A stretch of DNA of 64,000 bases from an uncultured Dehalococcoidia bacterium. Lineage in GTDB: Bacteria > Chloroflexota > Dehalococcoidia > Lucifugimonadales > UBA3495. This document shows, piece after piece, positions 29,999-37,304 of this stretch. The stretch spans positions 2,207,537 to 2,271,536 of the forward strand of contig OY282494.1 of the NCBI GenBank assembly GCA_958296385.1, read 5' to 3'. Numbering within the stretch: position 1 is the first letter of the stretch; each line of letters starts with the position of its first letter. The notes under the pieces are model-generated. The model had not been told where the DNA came from. It searched no databases and saw only the letters and a list, made by a program, of their open reading frames with translations. Made by a program: the position numbers and the translations under genes.

Positions 29999-31669
29999 GT
30001 GACTACACTACCCGCAAACCGGCTTTATTTTGGCGATAACCTGCCTATCCTGCGGGAGCAGATTGCCGACGCTAGCGTTGACCTGATTTATCTCGACCCG
30101 CCGTTTAACTCCAACTCCACCTACAACGTGCTGTTCCGGGAGCGCAGCGGCGAGGAATCGGCGGCGCAGATTACGGCTTTTGAGGATACCTGGCGCTGGG
30201 GGTTGGAATCGGAAACCGCCTACCGCGAGGTCGTGGCCAATGGCCCCCATCATCTGGCCAACCTGTTGCAGTCAATGCGCGGGTTCCTGGGCCAGAACGA
30301 TATGATGGCTTATCTGGCGATGATGGCGCCCCGCCTGGCCGAGCTGCATCGCGTGCTCAAGCCGACGGGCAGCATCTACCTGCACTGCGACCAGACGGCC
30401 GGCCATCTGCTGCGCCTGCTGCTGGACGCCGTCTTTGGGGCGGTCAACTTCAAGACGCAAATCGTGTGGAAACGCACCAGCGCCCACAGCGACACCCGAC
30501 AGGGCCGCCGCCAGCACGGCCGCATCCAGGACAACATCCTGTTTGCCACCAAAAGCGACGAATGGCACTGGAACCCGGTTTATACCCCGTATGACCGGGA
30601 GTATATCGAGGAATTCTACCGGCACATTGAACCGGAAACCGGACGCCGCTATACGCTTAACGATATGACCGGGCCGGGCGGCGCCAACCGAGGCAACCCG
30701 GAGTACGAAGTGCTGGGCGTAACCCGCGCCTGGCGGTACAGCCGGGAACGGATGCAGGAACTGATTGACGAGGGCCGCGTCGTCCAGACCAACCCCGGAA
30801 CGGTGCCGCGCTACAAGCGCTACCTGGACGAAATGCCCGGCATACCGCTACAGGACATCTGGACGGACATTCCCCCGGTAGGCTCCCGCTCTGCGGAACG
30901 GCTGAATTACCAGACGCAAAAGCCCGAAGCCCTGCTGGAACGCATTATCCGCAGCAGCAGCAACGAGGGCGACCTGATCCTTGACCCCTTTTGCGGCTGC
31001 GGCACCGCTACGGCGGTAGCGGAACGGCTCAACCGCCGCTGGATTGGCATTGACATCACCCATCTGGCCGTCAGCCTGATGCGCTACCGCCTGCACAGCG
31101 CCTTTGGCGACGGCTTGCGTCCCTACGACGTAATCGGCGACCCCAAAGACCTGGCCAGCGCGCGGGCGTTGGCCACCGAGAGCGCGCACGATGGCCGTTA
31201 CCAGTTCCAGTATTGGGCTTTGAGCCTGGTTGAGGCGCTGCCGGCCCGGGATAACCGTCGGCGCGGCGCCGACAGCGGCATTGACGGCAACATCAACTTC
31301 TTTGACGACAACAGCGGACGGGCCAAGCGGCTGATTATCCAGGTCAAAAGCGGCGGCGTCAGCGTGGCCGACATACGGGATTTGCGGGGCACGCTGGAAC
31401 GGGAACGGGCGCAGATTGCCCTGTTCATCACCTTGAACGCGCCCACCCGGCCGATGCTGCAAGAGGCGGCGGCGGCCGGCTTTTACGAACCGGAACACTT
31501 CCCGGAACACCATTTCCCCCGCGTGCAAATCCTGACTATTGAGGAACTGCTGAACGGTGCCGCCGCGCAATACCCCCGCTTTGCGCCCATCGCCACCTAC
31601 GGCAACCGGCCCACCGGCCGGCCGTCGCGCCGCCGCATCCGGGAAACCCCGCAATCCTCATTCGTCTAA
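29999..31669 (+). CDS. DNA methyltransferase fused to Mrr-like nuclease domain
   Basis: 556 residues from a GTG start; an ATG at 29991 is out of frame and stops at once. The N-terminal part is an N6-adenine/N4-cytosine methylase with the catalytic motif DPPFN at 33-37 first and the SAM-binding FCGCGT near 330 later, the order of the beta class. [12 protein letters not shown] precedes motif I as usual. From about residue 400 a second domain begins: GADSGIDG (near 424) and IIQVKSGGV (near 446) give the D...QxK spacing of Mrr-type PD-(D/E)XK nucleases. A single chain may thus both modify and cleave DNA, or the nuclease-like domain may only bind. No specificity subunit is adjacent. The gene is flanked by an inverted-repeat element, consistent with transfer. 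Confidence 0.85.
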
Positions 31670-34237: not shown

Positions 34238-35101
34238 TCATTGGACCAGCAGACTGAGCTGGAGCTTTCTGTTCAAGTCCTGCACAAACCTGTCCTTGAC
34301 CGGCATTGCCGGATTGTTTCGCATCGCCTGATATACCTCGTCAACGCTGGTGGATACGTAACGGGTGGGAGTCAACGTCAACCTGTCGTCAGTCGGGGCG
34401 TCATTTGGGACGATGTTGTACAGTGCGAAGCGCGAGGCGTGTTCCGGCGAAAACCCGTCGTCCTTAAAGCCGTAGCGGTTGACCAGGTTGGCGTAAATAT
34501 ATTCCTGGATGACCCAGTAACATTTCGCGTCCCAGGCTTCGTACACTATCCCTTTGTTCATCAGTTGAGTGATAGCTCGCTTTATTGAATCATACGTATT
34601 GCTCCCAAATTTGTAGGATTCGCCGGCCACGTCACTCCCCTCGAAAAAATCCTTTATGCCGCGTACCAATTCTCCGGTATTCGTAGTGGAATCGGATTGA
34701 AATTCAACGGCCACAAAATCAGCTACTTCGGGCTGCATCGGCTTGTGTTTGGTTATAACGTAGTCAATGTTGCCAACGTTTGGCAGTTTAACCTCCGGAA
34801 AAACGATGGTGTTGTCGGTGCTGCCAAAATAATGCAGTGCGATGTCCTCCAAAACTCGGGACACGCTGGCGTTGGGGCGGCGTTCCTCAAAACGGCGTGG
34901 GCAAATTGCGCGAATTTCGTCGCCGTATTGCACCGAACAGACGCCGAAGGGAAAATCAATCAGGCGGCTTTTCTTATCGCACTCCCGTTCCCGGAACGGG
35001 TAAAAATGCCGCCGGCGGACATCTTCGGCCGCGGTTGAGCGATTACGGACCGGGTATCCGAAAATTTCGGCCGGCCGCCGGTCTGAGTTCCGGCTAGTCA
35101 T
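34238..35101 (-). CDS. NotI-family type II restriction endonuclease
   Basis: 287 residues. ATG 35101 overlaps the end of the methyltransferase gene by 8 bases. The N-terminus RRPAEIFGYPVRNRSTAAED, then CDKKSRLIDFPFGVCSV and ICPRRF, is the signature of the NotI family, where four Cys hold a structural iron. Here Cys41, 55 and 67 are present but the position expected for the first Cys is Tyr34 (HFYPF). D113, E133 and Q135 (NIDYV ... VEFQSD) match the D...ExQ active site described for NotI. Expected role: cleavage of unmodified DNA; the recognition sequence cannot be read from the protein. A 159-base gap downstream (34079-34237) holds nothing recognisable. Confidence 0.85.
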   Translation of the reverse strand: MTSRNSDRRPAEIFGYPVRNRSTAAEDVRRRHFYPFRERECDKKSRLIDFPFGVCSVQYGDEIRAICPRRFEERRPNASVSRVLEDIALHYFGSTDNTIVFPEVKLPNVGNIDYVITKHKPMQPEVADFVAVEFQSDSTTNTGELVRGIKDFFEGSDVAGESYKFGSNTYDSIKRAITQLMNKGIVYEAWDAKCYWVIQEYIYANLVNRYGFKDDGFSPEHASRFALYNIVPNDAPTDDRLTLTPTRYVSTSVDEVYQAMRNNPAMPVKDRFVQDLNRKLQLSLLVQ

Positions 35102-37166
35102 TGGGGTTTCCCTTGATAAGATTTTTCCAGGCGGCGCGAATTTCCGATGGCGCCAGTTTGCTGTCCAACAGCCAGCCCAGCGTTGCGCCGCACTGCCGGC
35201 AAAATGTTTCGCTGTCCGAAGTATCAATATCCGCTGGCGGCGCCCAGGGTGCCGGCGGCGTGCCGTCAACCGCCAGGACCAAAACGCTGTCGTGCCGGAT
35301 TGACTTCAGATTGCGTATGTGCACCGAGATAGGATGCTCAGAATAGACGACGTAAGCGTTAATCAGCCGGAATCCGGCGTCTTTGAGCGCTATGGTGAGT
35401 TCGGCCCACGCGCCGGCATCCCAATGATGGAATGTGAACACCATGCGCCCGCTATCGCGCTTCAGTACGCGCCGGCACTCCGCGAATATGCCGGTGAGCG
35501 CGGTCATAAAGCTGCTGACGCCGTCGGTAGCTTTGACGGCAACGGCGCTGCGGGTTTCGTCGTAGCGCCATTCCGCTTCGTCAGGCAGCAGTCGCGTCAA
35601 CCACACCCGGAAAAAAGCCGCCAGGTTGCCGTATTGCACGCTGTCATAATACGGAGGGTCGGTCACCACCATATCAATCGAGTGACTATCAATCGGCAAC
35701 CTTTGCGAATCGCCTTGAATTAGCCGGAACCGGCGTTGTCCCTCTGATAGTTCAGCCTGATTAAATACCTCCACGCCGTTATCAGTCTCGCCCGGTATCT
35801 TGACCAGCGTCTTGTTGCCGTTCTCGTCAATCCTTCTCTCGATGGGCAATGCGGCCCACTTGCGCCCCCGTTCAATGCGGTCGTGAAAGAGCAGTTGCAG
35901 GTTGCCGGAGGACTTGCGGGGGTTGAGCGGGTTATTCTCCAGTGCGGTGTACTGAAACGAGTAGGCGTGCAGGGCGAACACGTGGCGGATTGCGCCGGGG
36001 CGACGTTTGTACCAGCCTTTGTAACCGCAAAGCATAGAATTGAATTCCAACGACGTGGACACCAGCATACCCAGATTGAGCTTGTTTATGCCGGTGTAGT
36101 CGCGCAGCTGTTGAATCGCCTGATGCAGATACAGCAGTTGTCGGGATGAAAATACATCCAAGTACGAATTGATATTGTGCCGCAGCAAGTCGCCGGATTT
36201 GGGGCCATCGTCCACTGCAAAGTCGCTGAGCGTTCCGAAATCCAATTCGTGCCGTTGCGCATCGGCCTGATTGATGCGCGCCCGGTCAGTTTCGCCTGGA
36301 GAACGAAAGAAAGTACCGTGTTCCGCGCAAACTGCGACAATTGCAATCGGCTCGTAGCGTAAATAAAAGGGCAGGTCAAGCAATTCCGCGTACTTATGGC
36401 CGCAAGCCGGGCATTGTTTATCAGCCTTGGTAATCAAGCCGGGGAGGTTATCACGCGCGCATCCGATAGTTTGACGGTCAGAAATCGTCAAATCATACGG
36501 ATTGATACGGATTTGGCGTTCTCCCTCGTGGCGTAAGGCGTACTGGTCAATTTGCACCACGCCCCGGCAAGCACATTTCTTACGCATACCGTGCAGGGTG
36601 TATTGAATATCCGTCGTCCGGGAGCAGGTTGGGCACTCGGTCTGATAATAATGCCCCAGGCTGCCATACAGGTCGGCAAAGAAACTGTCAAAGACAGCGC
36701 GCAAATCGGGCAGCCGGGCCGGCGACAGGGACGCCCGGGCCTGGATGATTGGGATGGGGTCAATGTCGGCGCCGATGACGTTTGCCCCCAGGCGAATGGC
36801 CTCGTGGAGGGTTGTGCCGCCGCCCATCATCGGGTCCAGGACGGTTTTGCCCTCCAACCCACCCGGAGCATAGTAGTCGCTGCGTCCGGCGTCCAGCGCA
36901 AACTGCTTCAGTATGGTGCGAAACGTAGAGCCGCAACGCCGCGCCCACCACTTGTGCAAGTAGGTATTAGGGCGAAAGAGATGCTTGTTAAACACCTCTT
37001 GACGGGATAGGTCGTCAACAAATTGCTCCGGGAAATTATAATCTATACTGCTGCTATACTCAGATGATGAACCGCAAGTCAATTCGTCCAGTATCATTTG
37101 CCGGCTTTCCCGGATAAAGCCGGCGTGCGGCAGGTTGGTTTCGGAATCCGGGGCGTATTCAGACAT
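35094..37166 (-). CDS. Zn-ribbon DNA methyltransferase of the NotI-like R-M system
   Basis: 690 residues from ATG 37166, preceded by GGTGAG; an ATG seven codons upstream is possible. RPNTYLHKWWARRCG is typical of COG1743-type DNA methylases. SAM motif I is LDPMMGGGTT near residue 110; catalytic motif IV is DPPYYDSVQYG near 500. Between them is a long insert with three likely zinc ribbons (CPTCSRT...KCAC; CPACGHKY; CxxH), and CRQCG near the end. It methylates N6-adenine or N4-cytosine, presumably protecting the site cut by the overlapping endonuclease gene. The methylase is translated first, which fits safe establishment of an R-M system. Confidence 0.85.
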   Translation of the reverse strand: MSEYAPDSETNLPHAGFIRESRQMILDELTCGSSSEYSSSIDYNFPEQFVDDLSRQEVFNKHLFRPNTYLHKWWARRCGSTFRTILKQFALDAGRSDYYAPGGLEGKTVLDPMMGGGTTLHEAIRLGANVIGADIDPIPIIQARASLSPARLPDLRAVFDSFFADLYGSLGHYYQTECPTCSRTTDIQYTLHGMRKKCACRGVVQIDQYALRHEGERQIRINPYDLTISDRQTIGCARDNLPGLITKADKQCPACGHKYAELLDLPFYLRYEPIAIVAVCAEHGTFFRSPGETDRARINQADAQRHELDFGTLSDFAVDDGPKSGDLLRHNINSYLDVFSSRQLLYLHQAIQQLRDYTGINKLNLGMLVSTSLEFNSMLCGYKGWYKRRPGAIRHVFALHAYSFQYTALENNPLNPRKSSGNLQLLFHDRIERGRKWAALPIERRIDENGNKTLVKIPGETDNGVEVFNQAELSEGQRRFRLIQGDSQRLPIDSHSIDMVVTDPPYYDSVQYGNLAAFFRVWLTRLLPDEAEWRYDETRSAVAVKATDGVSSFMTALTGIFAECRRVLKRDSGRMVFTFHHWDAGAWAELTIALKDAGFRLINAYVVYSEHPISVHIRNLKSIRHDSVLVLAVDGTPPAPWAPPADIDTSDSETFCRQCGATLGWLLDSKLAPSEIRAAWKNLIKGNPND

Positions 37167-37304
37167 GGTTGACTCACCATAAAGCATAGTTCGCCGGGGC
37201 CGGCGAAACGGATTGCGCAGTAAGACAAGGCGATGCTAATATCGGTTTGGGCAATTTAGTACACCGTCATTTGCCTTGTCAACCCGGATTACCCGCCCCG
37301 CAGG

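Follow-up and report, generated by a model that had tools for sequence, protein, structure and literature searches.

A NotI-family restriction endonuclease homologue with tyrosine at the first iron-ligand cysteine column in an uncultured Dehalococcoidia bacterium

Organization of the locus

The window (the whole stretch of DNA that was analysed, 64,000 nucleotides) belongs to the genome of an uncultured Dehalococcoidia bacterium, assembled as one contig of 3.3 Mb with a completeness of 99.95%. It carries a two-gene unit consisting of a DNA methylase gene, M, and a gene for a NotI-family endonuclease homologue, R, the latter being present in a single copy in the genome (Table 1). The motifs LDPMMGGGT and DPPYYDSVQY of M are intact. 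M was found in 13 related loci and adjoins the nuclease gene in nearly all of them. The overlap of the two genes and the recurrence of the pair in related loci correspond to the organization of a type II restriction-modification (R-M) system, in which an endonuclease lies next to a DNA methylase.

Table 1. Coordinates of the M-R unit and of the metal-ligand and catalytic codons of R in the window
Feature	Position	Strand	Evidence
NotI-family restriction endonuclease homologue (R), 287 aa	34238..35101	-	ORF and translation; Pfam PF12183, 31.9 bits (curated cut-off 22); model match to NotI 3c25, Z 22.2
N6/N4 DNA methylase (M), 697 aa, upstream of R with an 8-base overlap	35094..37187	-	PF01555, 8.8e-13
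Codon 34, TAC (Tyr), first iron-ligand Cys column	35000..35002	-	TGC/TGT in 12 close orthologues; Cys in 87 relatives; NotI column by profile
Codon 41, Cys, second ligand column	34979..34981	-	Family alignments
Codon 55, Cys, third ligand column	34937..34939	-	Family alignments
Codon 67, Cys, fourth ligand column	34901..34903	-	Family alignments
Catalytic stretch D113 ... E133-F-Q135, PD-(D/E)xK type with Q for K	34697..34765	-	D, E and Q conserved in family alignment

The closest relatives of R with named records come from uncultured Dehalococcoidia (Chloroflexota), with others across several phyla. In a genus mate (G417, OY282456.1) the M-R unit occupies the same chromosomal place, between the same two neighbour genes. 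The nuclease of this locus (L037) and that of L039 (CATQHB010000002.1) are 77% identical to R and belong to the same methylase-nuclease pair; both differ from R in having Cys at column 34. Distribution in the family is patchy, the nuclease being present in 3 of 50 genomes and a close methylase in the same three. Homologous nucleases with four Cys are also found on plasmids (Sedimenticola, Sphingobium, Thermus, Roseivivax and Sagittula) but share about 26-30% identity with R. The methylase beside these plasmid enzymes is annotated as cytosine type in four records and as adenine type in Thermus, whereas M is of the N6/N4 type (PF01555). The pairing with a PF01555 methylase is a modest variation on the neighbourhood of the plasmid NotI homologues.

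The NotI-like unit is separated by about 3 kb from a second, independent DNA-modification gene (29999-31669, plus strand; 556 aa), in which an N6/N4 methylase (PF01555, 1.2e-39) is combined with a C-terminal nuclease-type domain, Mrr-like or NA-iREase1. Elsewhere in the window, a single repetitive reading frame (27-20171, plus strand) stays open for about 6,700 codons and includes a cadherin-like beta sandwich and GLUG motifs within its first 1,980 aa; repeats homologous to this frame are present in the genus mate G417.

R encodes a homologue of NotI

A sequence-only reading of the locus had described a NotI-like endonuclease with the motif HFYPF (Y34), C41, C55, C67 and an active site formed by D113 and E133-F-Q135, and these positions were all reproduced in the translated open reading frame. 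The assignment to NotI was borne out by the Pfam match, by a family profile and by a structure model. The R protein scores above the curated cut-off of the Pfam NotI family. Used as a single query in phmmer against the PDB, it gave chance matches only, and a family profile was needed to reach the NotI structure; with this profile, solved NotI (3BVQ/3C25) was matched with an E value of 5.6e-8, and the CPF, C-x-K, GVC and VCP/ICP motifs were in register. AlphaFold yielded a model with a pLDDT of 91.3 when 9 distant sequences were added to the 14 close ones, which alone gave a pLDDT of 37. Compared to NotI bound to DNA (3c25_A), 266 of the 287 residues of the model could be aligned with an rmsd of 3.2 A (Z 22.2), the next-best family reaching a Z of 6.8 only; a Foldseek comparison of the model with NotI gave an E value of 4e-12.

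The active site had been considered intact, and indeed all three residues are aligned and conserved in the family; NotI itself has Q in place of K in its active site (PMC4081073). The fold and the D...E-x-Q active site are common to R and NotI (3BVQ, 3C25), and in both the metal-site motifs follow one another in the same order and at the same spacing. The two differ at the first ligand Cys, which is Tyr in R, and in length (287 vs 383 aa), and their identity is about 14%. Pfam score, fold and active site all place the R protein in the NotI family, and on these grounds the predicted protein is a homologue of NotI and, save for one residue, an ordinary member of its family.

Changes at catalytic columns were observed in other members. 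L159, L160 and L161, three distant NotI-like proteins each about 370 aa long, read D-E-M, with Met in the column of the catalytic Gln, and their second and third Cys are separated by a long insertion; in a close orthologue with 50% identity (L049:428-1246) Asp replaces the catalytic Glu133.

Tyr34 occupies the first iron-ligand column

NotI is described as carrying Fe in a Cys4 structural motif (PMC4081073) and its metal site as mono-iron and rubredoxin-like (PMC4176176); the title of the NotI structure paper, as cited, ties the iron fold to DNA binding. The earlier proposals that Tyr34 stands at the first iron-ligand Cys and that a single TGC to TAC change could explain it both held. Two independent routes, the alignment of close orthologues and the family profile, assign Tyr34 to the first-ligand column of NotI. 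CPF, with the codon TGC or TGT, replaces the YPF and TAC of R in every one of the 12 close orthologues whose site could be read, at 50-77% identity to R, and one step from TGC is sufficient to give Tyr34. These 12 include members of the same genus and the same family. The ligand survey covered more than 1000 genomes from several phyla together with viral contigs and plasmids; 88 sequences were readable at the four ligand columns, and the alignment with NotI-family sequences confirmed the column, with Cys-Cys-Cys-Cys in 87 of them, down to about 23% identity to R. The remaining one is R, which with Tyr-Cys-Cys-Cys falls outside a strict definition of an Fe(Cys4) site as Cys in the four metal-ligand columns.

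Two observations that could speak against the earlier reading, a ligand Cys displaced to another position and a homologue with Tyr at the first-ligand column, were looked for. The first was excluded, as the N-terminal half of the R protein contains no further Cys, and no instance of the second was found in the wide family survey. Other departures from Cys4 in the survey were broken genes, fragments or misaligned ends. L081, the only other full-length sequence without the first Cys, was considered as a second natural enzyme lacking this ligand and rejected as a decayed gene, carrying an 8-residue deletion and several further lesions. The viral contigs searched contained no close relative of R, and the phage records searched no relative at all. 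In the close orthologue L044:6001-6783, the loop that joins the second ligand Cys to the third is short by several residues, yet the four Cys are present.

Constraint on R and age of the substitution

Apart from R, the subfamily is invariant at 86 columns (a count that leaves out the more diverged L049), and among these C34Y is the sole private change of R, which argues that its position is beyond chance. The dN/dS of R relative to its two nearest orthologues is 0.10 (L037) and 0.09, with a tree-wide omega of 0.12. The branch of R (0.152) is not longer than that of the genus mate (0.179) and the methylase follows the same pattern (0.149 vs 0.174), indicating no relaxation of constraint on R when M is taken as the reference. 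A pseudogene reading of R was rejected, as the gene has no stops or frameshift and a dN/dS of about 0.1.

Neutrality over the full branch would predict about 132 nonsynonymous changes at the 86 codons, and none was seen besides C34Y. This sets a 95% bound of about 2.3% of the branch on any neutral period of R, a rough value given that dS is near saturation. If C34Y abolished function, its origin would lie within about the final 2% of the branch; as there is no decay besides residue 34, inactivity, if real, would be very recent.

Loss of the nuclease has occurred in two relatives in which the methylase is intact. In L046 the nuclease is broken by an in-frame stop after CPVRF, and in L051 it is lost except for copies of its 3' end. 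These two loci indicate that an orphan methylase is a natural outcome in the subfamily, and by analogy such an outcome is plausible for the R-M unit described here. At L051:5200-7000 the intact methylase is followed by three near-identical copies of the nuclease 3' end, separated by small ORFs resembling toxin-antitoxin genes, as if modules had been inserted repeatedly at the gene end.

Interpretation of Tyr34

Tyr34 is real in the assembled sequence, but most likely does not denote a new kind of enzyme. The rest of R being pristine, C34Y is either very recent, or a base error of the assembly, or tolerated. We favour, at slightly better than an even chance, a substitution of very recent date by which the predicted iron site of R is weakened or lost. 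This estimate rests on the complete conservation of Cys across the family, which argues against tolerance, and on the other nuclease-dead loci, whose existence suggests that fresh losses of the nuclease are not rare. A counterpoint is that R is otherwise without decay, so that the loss has to be confined to a narrow time slot. The likelihoods given here and below are judgements and were not computed.

With a recent damaging substitution, R would belong, as its endonuclease gene, to an R-M unit of two genes held by vertical descent, an N6/N4 methylase followed by a NotI-type endonuclease; a G to A change specific to this lineage and of very recent date, converting TGC to TAC, would have hit the first ligand of a mononuclear iron site. 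Exchange of one thiolate for a bulky phenol in a rubredoxin-like Cys4 site would most likely weaken or abolish iron binding, and loss of the iron may undo the DNA-binding fold that it holds together. The nuclease would then be inactive or weak while host DNA would still be modified by the methylase, a state on the way to an orphan methylase.

An error of assembly or consensus would mean that codon 34 is in truth TGC, R then encoding an ordinary NotI homologue. TAC and TGC differ by one base, the remaining gene is fully constrained as expected of a normal enzyme, and no second genome of the source species with the gene was found. We nevertheless regard such an error as unlikely: the genome is nearly complete in its single contig, by a rough check, greedy ORFs of at least 90 aa take up about 91% of the window and no gene is obviously split by a frameshift, and the prior chance that a random base error falls on a ligand codon is low.

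Tyr is able to coordinate Fe(III) in other proteins, a phenolate being a possible Fe(III) ligand, and Tyr34 or the neighbouring His32 might provide the fourth ligand, so that an active enzyme would have a functional Cys3-Tyr or Cys3-His site. The unrelaxed purifying selection seen over the whole protein would be consistent with such a site, as would the presence in most of the subfamily of a His two residues before position 34, from where it could approach the metal. However, no other family member swaps this Cys in an otherwise intact protein, and in relatives that keep the Cys His32 can be Tyr or Phe and is thus not a dedicated ligand, which makes this site quite improbable. That the iron site is dispensable in the subfamily, or that the three remaining Cys are enough and C34Y is nearly neutral, would agree with the intact R gene but is very doubtful given the strong constraint on every ligand indicated by the four Cys in all 87 readable sequences.

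If C34Y is inactivating, as in the favoured reading of a recent damaging substitution, the locus would be an R-M system caught in the course of losing its nuclease, with the methylase kept and no other decay yet begun. Should the enzyme still work, R would be a natural experiment on whether four thiolates are required by the NotI iron, and a true Cys3-Tyr or Cys3-His32 site would imply that one base change is enough to alter a DNA-binding iron site in its metal or redox behaviour. Either way, the pair of orthologues with Tyr and with Cys, at 77% identity, offers a clean comparison.
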